Shown here: positions 14,861 to 36,527 of the stretch, piece after piece
How positions within the stretch are numbered: the first letter of the stretch is position 1
How the letters are laid out: every line of letters begins with the position of its first letter
IMG/VR virus record: IMGVR_UViG_3300021960_000023
Coordinates: 62,001 to 126,000 of that record
DNA: 64,000 bases
Reading direction: 5' to 3' (one strand)
DNA from: a virus
Program-made: the position numbers and the translations under genes
The notes under the pieces: model-generated
The model's database searches: none
What the model was told of the DNA's origin: nothing
The model's input: only the letters and a program-made list of their open reading frames with translations

Positions 14861-15516
14861 TGATAGAATATGATCCAATAGAAATCAATACTGATTTAGA
14901 ACAACACACAAAAAAGACTGGTAGGTATTATACCGATCCAGATGGTAATAGATATTATTCTGTTACAACAGTATTATCCATATTAAATAAAGCAGCTATA
15001 ATGGCATGGCGCAAGCGCGTAGGAAACGAAGAAGCAAATCGTATATCTTCGCAAGCTGCTACTCGTGGTACAAAAGTACACGATATGATAGAAAAATATA
15101 TTGTAGGAGAAGATTTTGCTAAGGATAATTTAGTAGCATTATCTAACTTTAAAGATATACAACCTATTATAGATAAGAATTTAACAAAAATCCATGCAGT
15201 CGAAGCAAGGTTATTCTCTAAGCATTTAGGGTTAGCTGGAACAGTAGATTGTGTAGGTATTTGGGATGGCAAACTTAGCATTATTGATTGGAAAACATCC
15301 AAGAAATTTAAAAAGAAAGAGTGGTGCGAAAACTACTTTATGCAAGCTTCCGCGTATGCAATTATGTGGGAAGAAAGAACTGGTATACCTATTACTAATT
15401 TGGTAGTAGCAATTGCTGGTGACGAAGGTACTCAGATCTTTATTGAACATAGAGATGACTGGGATAAAAAATTAATTGAAACTATAACAGAATATAATAG
15501 GAGAAAAAACAAATGA
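14860..15516 (+). CDS. PD-(D/E)XK superfamily nuclease (RecB-like exonuclease)
   Basis: A 218-residue nuclease-fold protein. RGTKVHDMIEKYI (about 69-81) is the first helix. GLAGTVDCVG (about 123-132) and LSIIDWKTSKK (about 137-147) give the D...DxK metal and catalytic residues, and QASAYAIMWEE (about 160-170) is the QxxxY helix of RecB/YqaJ-type exonucleases. It likely acts in phage recombination or host DNA degradation. TAATG junction upstream, ATGA downstream. Confidence 0.85.
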   Translation: MIEYDPIEINTDLEQHTKKTGRYYTDPDGNRYYSVTTVLSILNKAAIMAWRKRVGNEEANRISSQAATRGTKVHDMIEKYIVGEDFAKDNLVALSNFKDIQPIIDKNLTKIHAVEARLFSKHLGLAGTVDCVGIWDGKLSIIDWKTSKKFKKKEWCENYFMQASAYAIMWEERTGIPITNLVVAIAGDEGTQIFIEHRDDWDKKLIETITEYNRRKNK

Positions 15517-16016
15517 TAGGAGTAAACGAAACGTTCCCGACATTCCATATGAATGGAGTAGAAGGAGAAGAAATAGTAACAAGAAATAGTTCCGACTATA
15601 CTGGATGGAGAGTATTTTACTTTTACCCAAAAGACTTTACCTTTATTTGTCCGACAGAGATCTGTGCAATGGATAAATTACTTGGAGAAGCTATCGTGGT
15701 AGGATTTAGTGGAGACAATGAATTCTGTAAAAAAGCTTGGAAAGAATCTAACGAAGCGTTAGGTAATATCAGACATCCACTATTAGCAGATTGCGGATTA
15801 AAATTATCCCATGAACTAGGTATAGTAGACTTTGGAGCACTTGCATCTTTAAGAGCAACATACATTGTTGACCCAGAAGACAAGATCCAACATGTATCAG
15901 TAAATGCATTAGATACAGGAAGAAATGCAGATGAGGTTTTAAGAACTGTACAAGGTCTTAAAGCTGGCGGTTTAACAGGTTGCTCGTGGAATCCGGGTGA
16001 CGATTTTGTGGTATAA
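15513..16016 (+). CDS. Peroxiredoxin (AhpC/TSA family)
   Basis: A 167-residue peroxiredoxin that reduces peroxides. The peroxidatic cysteine is C46 in YPKDFTFICPTE, with the supporting Thr/Pro of PxxxTxxC. A resolving cysteine is likely C157 in the C-terminal GLTGCSWNPGDDF, typical of 2-Cys enzymes. No signal peptide, so cytoplasmic. It could protect the replication complex or ribonucleotide reductase radical from oxidants during infection (inference). It could draw electrons from host thioredoxin or the phage glutaredoxin. Confidence 0.92.
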   Translation: MIGVNETFPTFHMNGVEGEEIVTRNSSDYTGWRVFYFYPKDFTFICPTEICAMDKLLGEAIVVGFSGDNEFCKKAWKESNEALGNIRHPLLADCGLKLSHELGIVDFGALASLRATYIVDPEDKIQHVSVNALDTGRNADEVLRTVQGLKAGGLTGCSWNPGDDFVV

Positions 16017-24615: not shown

Positions 24616-26463
24616 ATGAAATATATAACAACGATTTGGACAAGTATTGCACTTTGTATTGCACTTTTAGGCATAAGAGTTTTAGACCCAGTTTTAGTAG
24701 AACAATTAAGATTAAATAGTTTCGATCAATATATTCAGAGCTTACCCGACAAGGAATCCGATGTTGTTCTACTATCATTCGGAGAAGAAACTCTAGCTAC
24801 ATATGGCCAATACCCTTTTCCAAGACATACCTACGCACAACTGATATCAGATCTAAGAGCTGCTAACGCTGGGATGATTGGGTTTACTATTATGTTTCCA
24901 GAAGCAGATAGGTTTGGTGGTGATGAGGTATTTATTTCCTGGGTAAACAATAACGGAGTCATTCTCGCGCAAGACGCGTCCTCTCGCGGGCGCTCGGATA
25001 CGGCCCCGTACGTGGGTACGGCCACGCTCGGCGAGGGCGACGCGTACGACTTTGTTCCTAAATATAGTGGGTTAGTAACAAATATAAAAGAATTAGAAGA
25101 CGCTGCATGGGGTGTAGGATTAATAAATGCAGGTCAAGAAGTAGATAATATAACAAGACGGATTCCTTTATTGTCCCAAATAAACGGACAGTTATATCCA
25201 TCAATGCCTTTAGAAATCATAAGAGTAATACAAGATAAAAAGTCTTATTCACTAAAAGCAAACTATGATGGTATAGAAAATGTAATGATTCCACCATATG
25301 AACCTATTCAAACAGATTACAATAGTTCTATATGGTTAAATATGAATTATACTCATAAAGAATATGAATACGGTAAAGATGTATTACCTAATCTTCAAGG
25401 TCAAACAGTCTTGGTTGGTCTAACAGCAAGTGGCCTTGCTTCTCAAATACCAACTCCTCAAGGTTTGTTCTCTGCTCACCAATTGCAGGCGTCGGCACTT
25501 CAGACTGTGATAGATGGGAATTCGATATCTCGTCCTGGTTGGACATACTTAGTTGAATTGTTAGCTCTCGCCATAGGATCGGTTCTGATTGTTCTAGGGA
25601 TATATCAGATGTCTGTCTTGACAGGTGCTGTATTCTCCGCCGTGATCGTGCTTGGCTACTCTGTATATGTTTGGTACGTCTGGACCTCAATGGGTATACT
25701 CCTTGATCTAACCTATCCTATAATAGTATATATACTTTCTTTTTCCTCAGCCGCATTTAATAATTTTTATATACAATTTAAATTAAGACAACAGATTAAA
25801 GGTCAATTCTCTACATACCTTTCTCCAGATATGGTTAACATGCTAGTCAAAGATCCTAGCTTAATGAAGCTCGGTGGTGATAGAAAAGAAATGACATTCC
25901 TCTTTATGGATATATGTGGTTTTACCCCTATCTCGGAATACTATAAGAACAATGATGATCCAGAAGGATTAGTAGAATTAGTCAATGAATTCCTAGATGC
26001 TATGACTACTATCATCTTATCCAACGGCGGAACCATCGATAAATATATGGGTGACTGTATAATGGCATTTTGGAATGCTCCATTACCTTGTAAGAACCAT
26101 GCTGAAATGGCAGTTAAGTCAGCAATAGAAATAGAAGAAAAAACAAATGAACTTAAAGAACTTTATAAAGAACGTGGCCTTCCCGATATTAACGTTGGCA
26201 CTGGTGTTAACACCGGCGATTGCATTGTTGGTAATATGGGTAGTAAATCCAGATTTGATTATTCGGTCATTGGAGATGCAGTCAACCTTGCCGCCAGGCT
26301 CGAGGCTACCGCGGCTCGTCATGAGTATGTAGAATACAAAACCATTATATCATCCTTCACACAACAACTTCTTCCTCAGGGTTATGTCTCTCATAACATC
26401 GGAACCATCAAGGTTAAGGGTAAAGAAGAAGAAATCACTATATATTCCCCTAAAAAGAAATAG
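24616..26463 (+). CDS. CHASE2-domain class III adenylate cyclase
   Basis: A 615-residue membrane enzyme. One N-terminal TM (about 7-24), an extracytoplasmic CHASE2 sensor (about 30-300: VVLLSFGEETLATYGQYPFPR, NITRRIPLL), about three TMs (310-385), then a class III cyclase domain (about 425-600). Catalytic residues are all present: metal D432 (FMDICGF) and D480 (DKYMGD), adenine-selecting K476 and D548, N557 and R561 (DAVNLAARLEA). It should make cAMP from ATP on sensing a periplasmic signal. The FecR neighbour is a usual partner. A 90-nt patch (24961-25050) has 71% GC. Full-length, no lesion. Confidence 0.95.
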   Translation: MKYITTIWTSIALCIALLGIRVLDPVLVEQLRLNSFDQYIQSLPDKESDVVLLSFGEETLATYGQYPFPRHTYAQLISDLRAANAGMIGFTIMFPEADRFGGDEVFISWVNNNGVILAQDASSRGRSDTAPYVGTATLGEGDAYDFVPKYSGLVTNIKELEDAAWGVGLINAGQEVDNITRRIPLLSQINGQLYPSMPLEIIRVIQDKKSYSLKANYDGIENVMIPPYEPIQTDYNSSIWLNMNYTHKEYEYGKDVLPNLQGQTVLVGLTASGLASQIPTPQGLFSAHQLQASALQTVIDGNSISRPGWTYLVELLALAIGSVLIVLGIYQMSVLTGAVFSAVIVLGYSVYVWYVWTSMGILLDLTYPIIVYILSFSSAAFNNFYIQFKLRQQIKGQFSTYLSPDMVNMLVKDPSLMKLGGDRKEMTFLFMDICGFTPISEYYKNNDDPEGLVELVNEFLDAMTTIILSNGGTIDKYMGDCIMAFWNAPLPCKNHAEMAVKSAIEIEEKTNELKELYKERGLPDINVGTGVNTGDCIVGNMGSKSRFDYSVIGDAVNLAARLEATAARHEYVEYKTIISSFTQQLLPQGYVSHNIGTIKVKGKEEEITIYSPKKK

Positions 26464-29736: not shown

Positions 29737-30918
29737 ATGGCACTTAAAAAATTAAATAAGAAAAGAATCTCGATGAGGAAAGATAGAGTTTCTTTAGATG
29801 CAAAGATGATGGGTCCAGAACCTCTCTTCACAGAAGAAGATGGACACATGGACATTGAAGAACAATACGATGGAAAGATTGGCCGAAAATGGGCTAAAGC
29901 TTCCAGATGGTATAATTACTTTTATCAAAACAAAGATTACCTTCCACACGCAGTAGACTTTCTAAGAGATGTATATGGTTGGGATGATGATAAGTTAAAA
30001 GTCTTTTTACGTTTACCCGATTATACAATTAGAAGAGTCGGTGGGGTTGGCGTTATATGGTCAAGAGGTTACAAATATGATCCATTGTTTATCGAAGGCT
30101 TTAAACCTATTACTGATGAACTATATGAAAAAGCTACTTTATTAGAAGAGCAAAGAGTAGAAGCAGTAAAAGAAAAACCTAAAATGCCTAGTATACAAGA
30201 AAGAACTAGAGCAAAGGTATTAGAAACCATTTATATGGAATTTGATGTTAACGTAGTTGATGAATGGATGGAAGGTAATTATAAAGTTGACTTCGAAGCA
30301 TTCTCTCTATTTAAAAACTTTGGATTAAAAGGTAATGCTATTTCTATATTCCAAGACATGATCGATGTAGAATATCTAGGACTAAAAGAAGCATACGATA
30401 AAACATGTCCTGATTGTGTAGAAGCTTATTCACACATTACGAAAGGCAATAAAAAGAAAATGCTCAACGTATACGACAATATTTATTCTGACCTTGATAA
30501 ACTTAAAGATAGCTTTAAAGCGACGCGTAAGGCGCGTGTACGTGTCCCTAGGAGCAACGAACAACAGGTATCTAAGTTAAACTATATGAAAGAAGACTTA
30601 GCAGCTAAGTTAACATCTATTAATCCTATCCTTATTCCAACCGCATCTAAGCTATATGTTTATAATGTTAAACAAGGTAAGCTTGCAGAATACACTGCAT
30701 TAGATGCTAAGGGTTTCGAGATCGCTGGATCTACTATTAAGAACTATGATACTAAACTAAGTAAAATAACTAAGTTAAGAAAGCCAGAGGAAATACTACC
30801 GCTTATTCTAAACAAAACAGAAAAGCAAATACTAAAAGTATGGAAAGGATTAACAACAAAGATTTATGAACCAACAGGCCGAATCAACAAGGACTGTATT
30901 TTAATGAGAGTAATATAA
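29737..30918 (+). CDS. Conserved protein upstream of gp33, unknown
   Basis: A 393-residue soluble protein. Residues about 55-90 (WYNYFYQNKDYLPHAVDFL) and a CPDC pair at about 227-230 stand out; the C-terminal about 120 residues are Lys-rich and repetitive (KLSKITKLRKPEEILPLILNK). I recall long proteins of this type beside gp33 and gp59 in T4-like marine phages, unassigned. The C-terminal ends IKKDCILMRVI-like with an overlapping TAATG start for gp33. A GC-rich stretch (30520-30548) encodes KATRKARVRVP. Confidence 0.6.
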   Translation: MALKKLNKKRISMRKDRVSLDAKMMGPEPLFTEEDGHMDIEEQYDGKIGRKWAKASRWYNYFYQNKDYLPHAVDFLRDVYGWDDDKLKVFLRLPDYTIRRVGGVGVIWSRGYKYDPLFIEGFKPITDELYEKATLLEEQRVEAVKEKPKMPSIQERTRAKVLETIYMEFDVNVVDEWMEGNYKVDFEAFSLFKNFGLKGNAISIFQDMIDVEYLGLKEAYDKTCPDCVEAYSHITKGNKKKMLNVYDNIYSDLDKLKDSFKATRKARVRVPRSNEQQVSKLNYMKEDLAAKLTSINPILIPTASKLYVYNVKQGKLAEYTALDAKGFEIAGSTIKNYDTKLSKITKLRKPEEILPLILNKTEKQILKVWKGLTTKIYEPTGRINKDCILMRVI

Positions 30919-32751: not shown

Positions 32752-32777
32752 AGGGGTGCGAAAGCGCCCCTTTTTTT
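32752..32777 (+). terminator. Rho-independent terminator after gp32
   Basis: 8-bp stem AGGGGTGC/GCGCCCCT with a GAAA loop (32752-32771), then seven T (32771-32777). It ends at the stop codon of the convergent tape-measure gene, thereby separating the plus early genes from the minus late block. Confidence 0.9.
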
Positions 32778-34584
32778 ATCTGCTGGTTACAGATCCAAGA
32801 ACAGAAGTTGCTCTTGTAATTGGACTTTGTACTACTGTTGATCGAATAGAAGTAGCATTAGTAACATTACCACCTGTTGCGTTAGTAATTACTGCGCTTA
32901 CAGATTGACCTGCAGATTTCTGTGCTTCATTGGATTGTGACTTTGCTAATATCTCACTGCCATCTACTGTAGTTTTCGGATCTACCTGGCTCGATATATC
33001 TGGCATTTCACCTGATAACATTTTTTCCATATCAGCATCTGTTTGTCCTGTATCTGGACCTTTCTCTGCCGCAGCTGCTTCATTCTTAGCTCTTATCTCA
33101 TCAGCTGCTCTTTTACCTCTTCCGGTATCAAGACCCTTAGAGATAGCATCTAATGCTGACGTGTCGAAATCATCTCCAAATAACCATTTGGCTGCTCTCT
33201 TACCTAAGAAGGATATCATTTTTCTTGGGATGTATGTAATCCCATTTACGATCGATGCTAAGAAGTCAACAAAATATAACATTGCAACTTTTAACGTATC
33301 CATTATACTTGCGCCAGGTCCTAATGAATCTTGTAGCTTTTTAAACCCGAAGTATAAACCACCTATTAATGCCATGATAGCTAATATAGGTACTAGTATT
33401 GGAGCCATCGCAACCACTATTGGTGTTATCGCTGTCATCATACTCATAAATGCAGCATATAGAGTTGGGATAAATGTTCCCATCATAAAGATTCTAAATA
33501 CCCTAGCTGCTTTTAGTGCAGTACCAATAACCTTAATTAACTTACCACCAAACAATAATGCTAATGATCCAACTAATAGACCAAAGGTTCCCATGTTTTC
33601 TGAAAATAGTGATCCAGCTTCTTCAAAGTCACCACGTAAAAGAGCAGAGATCGTATTAAATACAATAGAAGCTTTCTCTATTATATCAACCATGATTGCT
33701 TGGAATTTTTCTGGATCTAAGAACATTAAAGCTAAACCAGTTAGTCCAGCTAGAAGTCCTGCTCCTTTAGCTCCTGCGGAAACCGTTTCATCGAACTTAT
33801 CACCAAACTCTTCGAAACCTTTAGCCATTTGGAATAATCTAGAGTTAGCTTCTTCGTTAAGCTTTCGTGCCTCTCTTCTGTTTTCTTCTGATTCTGCACC
33901 TTTTGCTATTTCAGCAAGTTGAGCATTAGCAAGTTCTATCCCTCTATCATCACCATCTTCTATTGCTGATTTTAGATCTTCGTTTGCTTTATTATATGAA
34001 TCTTGTAATTCTTTAACTTCACCCTTTAGGTTTCTTCCGAAAGCTCCGCCAAGTTTTTTTAATGATCTTTGTAGATCTTTATTTAAAGTATCATCATCTA
34101 AAACTTTTTTACTTTCTTCAAGCTTTGATATAATACCTTTTACGCCTTCAAGATTATTTTTACTCTCTTGATCGTTCCAAGTTGTTTGTAATTTTAAAAG
34201 ATCACTAGATTGTGATTCAATAGCGGTTAGTTCTTTTAATCTATTATCTAAGGTTTTGTCAGTTTTAGATCCGGCAAGAAGTTCAACAGAAGCATTCAAA
34301 GCCTTCTGCATTTTTTCTGCAGATTTATATTCTCCTGTTGCTCTTAACTCATCTATTTTTAGCTGAGCATCTTGCATTTTAACAAGAGCATCTGCTTTGA
34401 CCTGTGCTCGTTTAGATGCTCCGTCCGTGGCATTGATTAACTTATTAAGATGTTTATTCGTAGATACAACTTCTTTCTTAGTATCTTTCTCTACTTTTTT
34501 ATCTTCCTTCTTTGACTTTGCCGGCTCTTTTCTTTCTGCTATCGGCTTTTGCTTTGAAGTTGTAGGTTTTTTATCGTCTGCCAT
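32776..34584 (-). CDS. gp29: Tail tape-measure / baseplate hub protein (gp29-like)
   Basis: A 602-residue protein transcribed leftward. N-terminal about 1-45 is Lys/Glu-rich; about 60-260 is long helical coil; about 275-470 has several hydrophobic helices (GLLAGLTGLALMF, GLLVGSLALLFG, PIVVAMAPILVPILAIMAL), the pattern of tape measures that thread the tail and act on the host membrane; the C-terminus is low-complexity. In T4, gp29 sets tail length. It is the last gene of the minus block; its stop overlaps the T run of the gp32 terminator. Confidence 0.8.
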   Translation of the reverse strand: MADDKKPTTSKQKPIAERKEPAKSKKEDKKVEKDTKKEVVSTNKHLNKLINATDGASKRAQVKADALVKMQDAQLKIDELRATGEYKSAEKMQKALNASVELLAGSKTDKTLDNRLKELTAIESQSSDLLKLQTTWNDQESKNNLEGVKGIISKLEESKKVLDDDTLNKDLQRSLKKLGGAFGRNLKGEVKELQDSYNKANEDLKSAIEDGDDRGIELANAQLAEIAKGAESEENRREARKLNEEANSRLFQMAKGFEEFGDKFDETVSAGAKGAGLLAGLTGLALMFLDPEKFQAIMVDIIEKASIVFNTISALLRGDFEEAGSLFSENMGTFGLLVGSLALLFGGKLIKVIGTALKAARVFRIFMMGTFIPTLYAAFMSMMTAITPIVVAMAPILVPILAIMALIGGLYFGFKKLQDSLGPGASIMDTLKVAMLYFVDFLASIVNGITYIPRKMISFLGKRAAKWLFGDDFDTSALDAISKGLDTGRGKRAADEIRAKNEAAAAEKGPDTGQTDADMEKMLSGEMPDISSQVDPKTTVDGSEILAKSQSNEAQKSAGQSVSAVITNATGGNVTNATSIRSTVVQSPITRATSVLGSVTSR

Positions 34585-34593
34585 TAGTTAGTC

Positions 34594-34977
34594 CTAATCT
34601 GGGTTACTGTCACCGTGTTCTTTTGCTGCACTTGATGTATATAAACCGAACCAAGCTGCGCCTGCACCTACTAAGATACTGATTAAGCCTGATTGCTCAA
34701 GTGATGGTTCTGGTAATTCCATAAACCAGAATGTAGCATAATATAATAAGTACATGTAAATAGATAAGAATAGTCTCGGTATAACTCTCCATGCATCTAG
34801 TGTTTTAGCTGCAAAGACCCATTTTTGCCACGGGTTCTTCCTATCATTTGTTGTTAATTCAAAAATTTCTTGTTTTAATTCACCAATCTCGGTAACCATA
34901 GCCATAAACTTTTTAAGGTCTATTTCTACTTCATTACGATCCATGTCACCTTGAAACTGTCCTGTTGGTTGATTCAT
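34594..34977 (-). CDS. Two-TM membrane protein, holin candidate
   Basis: A 127-residue protein. The cytoplasmic N-terminus (about 1-50) is acidic and helical; NPWQKWVFAAKTLDAWRVIPRL leads into two hydrophobic segments (about 68-88 and 98-115, GLISILVGAGAAWFGLYT) and a short polar tail. This resembles a conserved membrane family of T4-like cyanophages. Small size, two TMs and the lack of another candidate make it the best holin in the window for releasing the lysozyme, but this is inference. Confidence 0.6.
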   Translation of the reverse strand: MNQPTGQFQGDMDRNEVEIDLKKFMAMVTEIGELKQEIFELTTNDRKNPWQKWVFAAKTLDAWRVIPRLFLSIYMYLLYYATFWFMELPEPSLEQSGLISILVGAGAAWFGLYTSSAAKEHGDSNPD

Positions 34978-34978
34978 T

Positions 34979-35182
34979 TTATTTCCTCATTTTAGCTTGC
35001 TGTTGTTGCAACCTTTCGTTCTCCTTTTGGATATGATCCTGCAGGAGAGCAATGTAAATTTCCCTCTCCCATGGCATCATATTTTCCAATTCGGTTAACG
35101 AATAACCGTGATGCTGCATCATTGCAAAGTTAGTCTTGTAATGGTTTACAAGGCTATCATGCGAGAGGCCTAAGTAAAAAAA
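34979..35182 (-). CDS. gp51: gp51-like domain reached by -1 frameshift from gp26
   Basis: An open segment in the -1 frame relative to gp26, from the slippery run of seven T (minus strand, 35182-35176) to TAA at 34979. After the shift it encodes 65 residues: YLGLSHDSLVNHYKTNFAMM, then QHHGYSLTELENMMPWERE and a Gln-rich helical end. The part before the first ATG pair is clearly protein-like, and there is no start codon with a ribosome site, so it is best read as the C-terminus of a gp26-gp51 fusion of 300 residues. An ATG at Met19 of the segment is the only independent start. T4 gp51 is a hub assembly factor. Confidence 0.72.
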   Translation of the reverse strand, partial: FFYLGLSHDSLVNHYKTNFAMMQHHGYSLTELENMMPWEREIYIALLQDHIQKENERLQQQQAKMRK

Positions 35183-35880
35183 CTTTGAAGACCTTTTAGT
35201 TCTACTTTGTTTTCTTTACTACACTTAATACATTTATACTCTATATCATGAGTTAATGTTGGAACTGTTTCAAAGAAAGCAGATATCAATTTGAATTGTG
35301 GTGCGGTTAAGTTATTCACAAATGCCTCAACAGATTCTCTTGGTTCGTCTTTCGTATCATATACTCCATCATCATCAAATATTGTATCAATACAATCAAT
35401 AACTAAATCAAACGCACCTTCTGCTTTCGCTAGGTGGGATTCATCATATTTTTCTATATCCATTATTCCAGGATATCTAAGCGTTACGCCTATATCCTTA
35501 TCTATAATAACGGTGTTAGATTCTGGAAGATCTGTTAGATTTATTTCTTCTAAATTAACTCGGACTGGTGTAACGGAATTACACGTTTCATCTAAGCATT
35601 TAAGTTCTAAATCTACGATCTCGCCAACAGACTTTGAACGTAAGGCTAAAAACATTTTTTCGAAATCAAAAAGTGTAAAATGATTCATGTCTAGTTTCTC
35701 ATATACACAATCTTCGATTATATCTTTTAAAGTTCTAATAATCATTTTTTGATCTTTCGATTCTAAAGCAATCATTAAAAGTTTTTCTTCCTTTACATTA
35801 TAAGGTCTGTATTCTATTTGTTCTCCTGTACTCGGCAAAATTGTCGTGTACCTAGAACTATTCACTACTGGCAAAGCCAT
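35170..35880 (-). CDS. gp26: gp26-like baseplate hub / tail assembly protein
   Basis: A 236-residue protein of the T4 baseplate protein family (gp26-like, PF12322). The start MALPVVNSSRYTTILPSTGE, the helical YNVKEEKLLMIALESKD and the C-terminal IEYKCIKCSKENKVELKGLQSFFT are characteristic; four cysteines in two places (CLDETC, CIKC) may bind zinc. The end codes for FF-Thr-stop across seven T, where a -1 shift would fuse it with the gp51-like segment. Confidence 0.85.
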   Translation of the reverse strand: MALPVVNSSRYTTILPSTGEQIEYRPYNVKEEKLLMIALESKDQKMIIRTLKDIIEDCVYEKLDMNHFTLFDFEKMFLALRSKSVGEIVDLELKCLDETCNSVTPVRVNLEEINLTDLPESNTVIIDKDIGVTLRYPGIMDIEKYDESHLAKAEGAFDLVIDCIDTIFDDDGVYDTKDEPRESVEAFVNNLTAPQFKLISAFFETVPTLTHDIEYKCIKCSKENKVELKGLQSFFT

Positions 35881-35891
35881 AATTTATTCTC

Positions 35892-36527
35892 CTAAGTAAT
35901 AGTATTAATTGCGCTTCTTATTGCTGAACCTGTAGAACTCAAAGGTCCTTCAGGCACGAATCTATCGTAAGCAAAAGTTACGCTCATTTCAGTTACTGCA
36001 TCTGTTTGGGCATTATCTAAAGCAATGCCTTCATAACTTACAGGATAAGCCTTTAAAAGCTTAACTCCATAGACCGGAATGTTCTTCTGGTTCAGTTGCT
36101 GTATTATCACGTCAACAGAATAATCATTTTTAAATCCTGTGACATATGATTCGGTATTAAATATGCCTGACTGCCATTGTTCAAGCATATTTCTCATATA
36201 ATAATCATTTGTTAAATGGAATGTCATAGTAACATCCTCATCAATAAATGTATATGGGTATTTGTTTTGTTGTTTGTCGTGATCGTGCTCAAATGTAGAT
36301 AATGTTCTACCTGGCATATTAACTGATTTACATAAGATAGATATATCTCTTGGATCGTTAAGTAAATTACCAGCGCTAAAATTTCCTGATAATAGCGAGC
36401 TTACGATTTGTTGTGGATTAATGTTTAATAAAGAAACTGCAGGAGGTGCAAAAATAACATTGAATCTATTAGCTGGGGCTAATCCACCTTTCTTTGCTAT
36501 TGTTGATTTTAAATTTTCAATATTCAT
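35892..36527 (-). CDS. Tail-tube-fold protein (gp19 superfamily)
   Basis: A 211-residue protein with GGLAPANRFNVIFAPP, ISILCKSVNMPGRTLSTFEH, YPYTFIDEDVTMTFHLTNDYY and EMSVTFAYDRF, the strands and loops of T4 gp19-type tail-tube subunits. Position among hub genes (near gp48, gp26) suggests it may be the tube initiator (gp54) rather than the main tube protein, but the sequence alone does not separate them. Confidence 0.75.
   Translation of the reverse strand: MNIENLKSTIAKKGGLAPANRFNVIFAPPAVSLLNINPQQIVSSLLSGNFSAGNLLNDPRDISILCKSVNMPGRTLSTFEHDHDKQQNKYPYTFIDEDVTMTFHLTNDYYMRNMLEQWQSGIFNTESYVTGFKNDYSVDVIIQQLNQKNIPVYGVKLLKAYPVSYEGIALDNAQTDAVTEMSVTFAYDRFVPEGPLSSTGSAIRSAINTIT

Follow-up and report, generated by a model that had tools for sequence, protein, structure and literature searches.

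The gp26 locus of this phage raises the question of how a gp51-like domain, encoded just downstream of gp26 in another reading frame, comes to be translated. The window, the whole 64,000-nucleotide stretch of DNA that was analysed, comprises bases 62001–126000 of a 130,478-base IMG/VR virus record. Because the nearest counterparts of its baseplate wedge protein, ~40% identical, occur in the Pelagibacter phages Mosig and HTVC008M and the Methylophilales phages Melnitz, the source virus is classed, judging by protein similarity, as an unclassified, uncultured marine T4-like phage. Sequence comparison makes it highly probable that the gp26-gp51 locus encodes a tail assembly chaperone (TAC), made as two co-N-terminal proteins by −1 ribosomal frameshifting; the frameshifting is very likely, and the chaperone function is likely.

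The gp26-gp51 junction in the window

On the minus strand of the window, the genes are arranged in the order tail tube (gp19-like), gp26, gp51, a 127-aa ORF and a 602-aa ORF. The gp19-like tail tube gene (35892–36527; PF06841, E=1e-7; PHROG_45, E=1e-36) lies directly upstream of gp26 (35170–35880), whose zero-frame product of 236 aa ends at a TAG codon at 35172–35170, matches PF12322 (T4_baseplate, E=2.4e-57) and PHROG_150 (baseplate hub, E=5.9e-59), and yields an AlphaFold2 model with a pLDDT of 92.6. The 127-aa ORF (34594–34977; PHROG_10198, E=5.6e-20) separates gp51 from the 602-aa ORF (32776–34584). The latter is a candidate tape measure protein by its position, size and central hydrophobic stretch; it has no match in Pfam, PHROGs or NCBIfam, and pairwise comparison gave no proof of this identity. 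In phiM12, the annotation of the gene in the equivalent position notes a similarity to tape measure proteins. The S-PM2 gene that follows gp51 (L017:3386–5709) matches NAD:arginine ADP-ribosyltransferase (PF01129, E=5e-6), which is odd for the tape-measure position.

The 3′ end of gp26 reads CTT CAA AGT TTT TTT ACT TAG. The T run is exactly seven bases long (35182–35176) and stands in the phase X XXY YYZ (T TTT TTT), confirming the coordinates, phase and length of the perfect slippery heptamer described in the first-pass annotation. A −1 slip opens FF-YLGLSHDSLVNHYKTNFAMMQHHGYSLTELENMMPWEREIYIALLQDHIQKENERLQQQQAKMRK, an extension (34979–35176) of 65 codons (35176–34982) closed by a TAA stop (34981–34979), with a predicted fusion length of 235+65=300 aa. 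The match to PHROG_634 (baseplate hub assembly catalyst, E=1.7e-28) covers the extension from its third residue onward, in agreement with the gp51-like character first ascribed to it. Upstream, the −1 frame is limited by a stop 43 nt before the gp26 end. Its first start is an ATG-ATG pair at 35122/35119, 18 codons in and ~48 nt past the gp26 stop, and no ribosome-binding site was found in the sequence ahead of this pair, as the same annotation had remarked. Most probably, gp51 is not a separate gene here.

In-frame canonical heptamers number 99 in the 21,590 codons of the window's ORFs of at least 100 aa. Four of them are at most six codons from a stop, and a slip at just two of the four would open more than 15 additional codons. 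One of these two is the gp26 run; the other, AAAAAAC at 15504, was discarded as a normal gene overlap, the downstream gene having its own ATG. An identical junction is found in two independent metagenome contigs (L001 and L002), and all 15 of the nearest IMG/VR relatives (gp26 46–100% identical) keep AGTTTTTTTAC, one base, TAGGCCTCTC and a −1 gp51. By these comparisons, the junction is due to neither chance nor sequencing error.

Conservation of the putative slip site and coding constraint past the junction

Beyond the nearest 15 relatives, two wider scans added 160 loci, and gp26 and gp51 were located independently by profiles in each locus. Of the 186 loci having both domains, 184 place gp51 in the −1 frame relative to gp26; T4 and Aes012 depart from this layout, the domains being fused in their gene 51. 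Inside the two-frame overlap, 183 of the 184 loci, not all of them independent, carry a T-TTT-TT heptamer completed by C (116), T (66) or G (1). The set includes the isolates S-PM2, S-SSM4, P-SSM2, Mosig, Melnitz, phiM12, RHph_I1_9, KVP40, Aeromonas 65, AS-zj and Stenotrophomonas Ps15. The alignment across pelagiphages and cyanophages suggested in the first-pass annotation thus reveals a conserved slippery run, phase and codon bias, which are also conserved in rhizobiophages, KVP40-type phages and Aeromonas T4-like phages.

The codon context of the slip site was compared in 88 representatives (<65% identity), which were chosen as having the heptamer; only one of the 184 loci was left out for a true absence of the heptamer, and in three others the heptamer lies farther from the stop. 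The residue before Phe-Phe is Ser in 60 representatives, Asn in 13, Asp in 12, Ala in 2 and Gly in 1. The codon for this residue ends in T in all 88, where 50.7 would be expected from the codon use of each gene (P~1e-23), indicating that the slip site is kept beyond what the protein requires. Furthermore, counting from the first base of the first slip codon, the zero-frame stop follows at a distance of 6 or 9 nt in 85 of the 88.

A −1 gp51 without T-TTT-TTY was observed in the Ackermannviridae L024, L193 and L194 (Kuttervirus/Taipeivirus) and L192 (Vibrio YC), and in Vibrio K469 (L191). The heptamer-less junctions read GAA/GAG ATT TTC ATT TAA, GCT TTC ATG TAATG and CTT TTT GCG TAATG, and these phages may slip at a non-canonical site or use reinitiation.

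The codons just past the slip site bear on whether gp51 could instead be made by termination and reinitiation, in which ribosomes would terminate at the end of gp26 and begin anew at a nearby start codon, yielding gp51 as a separate small protein. TAATG or TGATG overlaps occur in some lineages (KVP40, RHph_I1_9, Vibrio YC and K469), a start codon that could permit reinitiation lies at most three codons after the slip site in 19 loci of other lineages, and GenBank annotates gp51 separately in S-PM2, KVP40 and P-SSM2. In the window, however, the only start at hand would be the distant ATG pair that lacks a ribosome site. When single-base codon differences over the first 19 codons past the slip site are counted in 73 independent close pairs, the −1 frame has 312 synonymous and 113 non-synonymous changes, and the other two frames have 80/367 and 47/405, bearing out the initial impression that the stretch before the first Met pair is protein-like. 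The 70 loci without a start in the first 14 codons give 125/43 in the −1 frame versus 33/145 and 17/154, and a start with a nearby SD-like site is present in only 11 of 180 loci. Because the synonymous excess holds in the 70 start-less loci, the stretch before the ATG appears to be read as a −1-frame protein although nothing can start translation there, and this constraint is the main argument against reinitiation in the window lineage. Reinitiation would, moreover, require neither the invariant T before Phe-Phe nor the overlap of the two frames upstream of the stop, and we consider it improbable.

Alternatively, RNA polymerase could add or drop bases on the T run, placing part of the mRNA in the fused frame. 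Slippage in bacteria is known for homopolymer runs of ~9 A or T (PMC5009743), but the run comprises 6 T in 114 of 180 loci and 7 T in 45 and never exceeds 8, which is short for efficient slippage, and the strict codon phase together with an upstream SD-like element points to the ribosome, making transcriptional slippage very improbable. A one-base homopolymer error in what is truly one fused ORF, or a decaying gp51, is exceedingly improbable, even though homopolymers are prone to errors and a fused ORF is present in T4-type relatives: the −1 relation recurs across many datasets and isolate genomes (184 loci, most of which have six T and a C), both the gp26 and gp51 parts are under purifying selection, and the identical junction in independent contigs, with AGTTTTTTTAC kept in all 15 nearest relatives, excludes the sequencing error that the first-pass annotation had named as fatal to its reading.

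Candidate stimulators of frameshifting

The SD-like element of the relatives is located 12–16 nt upstream of the slip codons, often as GGAGGG and elsewhere as AGAGGT, and places AGG at −14 or −13 from the slip codons in 81 of the 88 representatives. Glu codons at the element are GAG in 33 of 43 cases versus 11.6 expected (P=1.4e-12), and its pairing with an E. coli-type anti-SD, which may not be that of the host, is stronger than a synonymous null (P=1.8e-6). Judging by these biases, the element is retained beyond the needs of the encoded protein and is likely a stimulator of −1 ribosomal frameshifting in the relatives. Its counterpart in the window is a weak AAAGGT (35191–35196), with a pairing energy of ~−3.8 kcal/mol versus −10.2 in S-SSM4, calculated with the E. 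coli-type anti-SD that may differ from the host's. The layout resembles that of E. coli dnaX (PMC5009743), in which an SD-like sequence upstream and a hairpin downstream flank a homopolymeric heptamer, but the genes are unrelated, and the dnaX site is A AAA AAG, is ~50% efficient and yields a shorter product. In the literature searchable here, no report of a dnaX-like internal SD was found for tail chaperones.

Downstream of the slip site, the first 60 nt are on average more stably folded than codon shuffles, with a mean z of −1.15 ± 0.17 (controls, −0.46 to +0.27). The structures vary from lineage to lineage, and the window lineage has no strong structure (z −0.76). The 4-bp hairpin that the first-pass annotation placed just past the run, AGGC (35171–35168)/GCCT (35154–35151), does exist (35151–35171). 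It is separated from the heptamer by a 4-nt spacer, and 92.7% of its cells are paired in 31 relatives, with three double changes, versus 18–61% in slid controls; it is weak, and is a candidate weak stimulator. A longer alternative candidate hairpin that the first-pass annotation does not mention, AGCCTTGTAA/TTACAAGACT (35132–35155; spacer, 20 nt), has 81.3% of cells paired versus 32–47% when slid, with 16 double-change cells; its 5′ arm overlaps the 4-bp hairpin, so that the two are mutually exclusive. Both show some covariation in excess of the slid controls, but since RNAalifold predicted no consensus structure for the window clade, they are only candidates.

A stem between the SD-like AGAGG and a downstream CCTCT was also considered and was rejected, as partner swaps between genomes show no covariation. 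TAGGCCTCTC (35172–35163, minus strand) hardly varies within the window clade, its Leu codons CTC/CTT included despite the AT-rich genome, and this nucleotide-level constraint is unaccounted for by the tested pairing between the SD-like element and downstream sequence.

Probable tail-chaperone assignment and the T4 branch

Window gp26 shares PF12322 with T4 gp26 and T4 gp51, and because the latter two are named T4 tail assembly chaperones (Vladimirov, Gautam and Davidson, Virology 2022;566:9–15, as cited in PMC10274946 and PMC12846349), window gp26 is identified as a probable TAC protein. T4 gp51 is needed for assembly and is absent from particles (PMC3004832). No solved structure is related to gp26 by sequence, and the best PDB match of the predicted gp26 fold is the HK97 tail assembly chaperone 2ob9 (probability 0.72–0.75; weak E=0.38–0.66). 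The proposal that gp26 and gp51 are a frameshift-made tail-chaperone pair, raised in the initial annotation, is supported by this weak fold resemblance, by the fused T4-type gene 51, and by the gene order, with the gp19-like tube gene directly upstream and the candidate tape measure gene one gene downstream.

Systems of this kind are already known, and the chaperone inference is not new as far as the citing papers relate it: with reference to Vladimirov et al. 2022, PMC10274946 describes T4-like phages with a short and a fused long copy rather than frameshifting, and PMC12846349 describes T4-like phages whose TAC-N genes contain poly-T slip sites. Possibly new are the breadth of conservation, the evidence of coding constraint and the SD-like element, and we found no literature on gp26/gp51 frameshifting in cyanophages or pelagiphages. 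The mechanism proposed here would provide gp26 and gp51, which have long been classed as components of the baseplate hub, with a specific and testable mode of expression, and suggests that gp51 is wrongly annotated as separate, or wrongly omitted, in many marine phage records.

Specifically, most ribosomes would end at the TAG and release the short gp26 form (TAC-N, 236 aa), while a minority, with the Phe codons TTT TTT in the P and A sites, would slip back one base. The slipped ribosomes, re-paired with TTT TTT in the −1 frame, would pass by the stop and translate the 65 codons, producing the 300-aa gp26-gp51 fusion as the long form (TAC-NC). The efficiency would be raised by the upstream SD-like sequence, in most relatives and only weakly here, and possibly by a downstream hairpin. 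By analogy with lambda gpG/gpGT, the domain common to both forms would coat the tape measure protein, the C-terminal domain would recruit tail tube subunits, and both forms would depart before the tail is completed.

The lambda slip site is GGGAAAG, whereas the site here is a T TTT TTY heptamer, gp26 is larger and bears CxxC motifs, and an SD-like element lies upstream in most relatives. The two loci are alike in encoding a short protein with a rare −1 extension, predicted in the case of the window, in having the slip site a few codons before the stop of the short ORF, and in lying between the tail tube and the tape-measure position, which is occupied here by a candidate gene (lambda G/GT frameshift: Levin 1993 and Xu 2004, as cited in PMC5009743). 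The TAC locus of the Vandenendeviridae and Andersonviridae, with a conserved GTTTTT (PMC12846349), likewise has a TAC-N gene that ends in a poly-T −1 site and a conserved long open −1 frame without a separate start; these are different phage families, likened to the gp26 locus by layout.

In T4, Aes012 and Thanatos-2, gene 51 (249 aa) is a fusion of a gp26-like protein and gp51, and gene 26 is the short form. Residues 1–201 of T4 gp51 match PF12322 at E=3.9e-52 (T4 gp26, E=8.8e-64), and the C-terminus of T4 gp51 matches the −1 extension. T4 genes 26 and 51 thus belong to the same family as the window locus and contain the same C-terminal domain, but they are two separate genes on opposite strands, and the slip site is lost in the gp26 genes of all three phages (T4, AAA GAG TTC TTT GAG). 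Read from the genes alone, the short and long co-N-terminal forms would be provided by the frameshift layout in the window and by duplication and fusion in T4, Aes012 and Thanatos-2. Because other Straboviridae (KVP40 and Aeromonas 65) retain the frameshift layout, duplication and fusion in T4-type phages looks derived, judging from the layout across lineages. A 2016 review (PMC5009743) described T4 as an exception to tail-chaperone frameshifting; as almost every T4 relative sampled outside the T4 branch has the frameshift layout, this exception, too, looks derived. As a joint scenario, whose chances we regard as evenly balanced, −1 frameshifting at U UUU UUY with a selected internal SD ~10 nt upstream would be ancestral in T4-like phages, the T4 branch would have replaced it by gene 26 and a fused gene 51, and the Ackermannviridae would have kept the layout with a non-canonical site. 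In Campylobacter phage CJLB-14, a single 246-aa ORF (L196:856–1596) apparently ends in a fused gp51-like domain and is perhaps another fused long form.

Elsewhere in the window, a peroxiredoxin-like ORF (15513–16016, plus strand), recognized by eye from the motif YPKDFTFICPTEI, overlaps an upstream nuclease-like ORF and is a possible auxiliary metabolic gene. Two large plus-strand ORFs, at 24616–26463 and 29737–30918, match only the unknown-function PHROGs phrog_35576 and phrog_11903, and distant relatives of the one at 29737–30918 occur in Caulobacter, Sinorhizobium and Pseudomonas phages.
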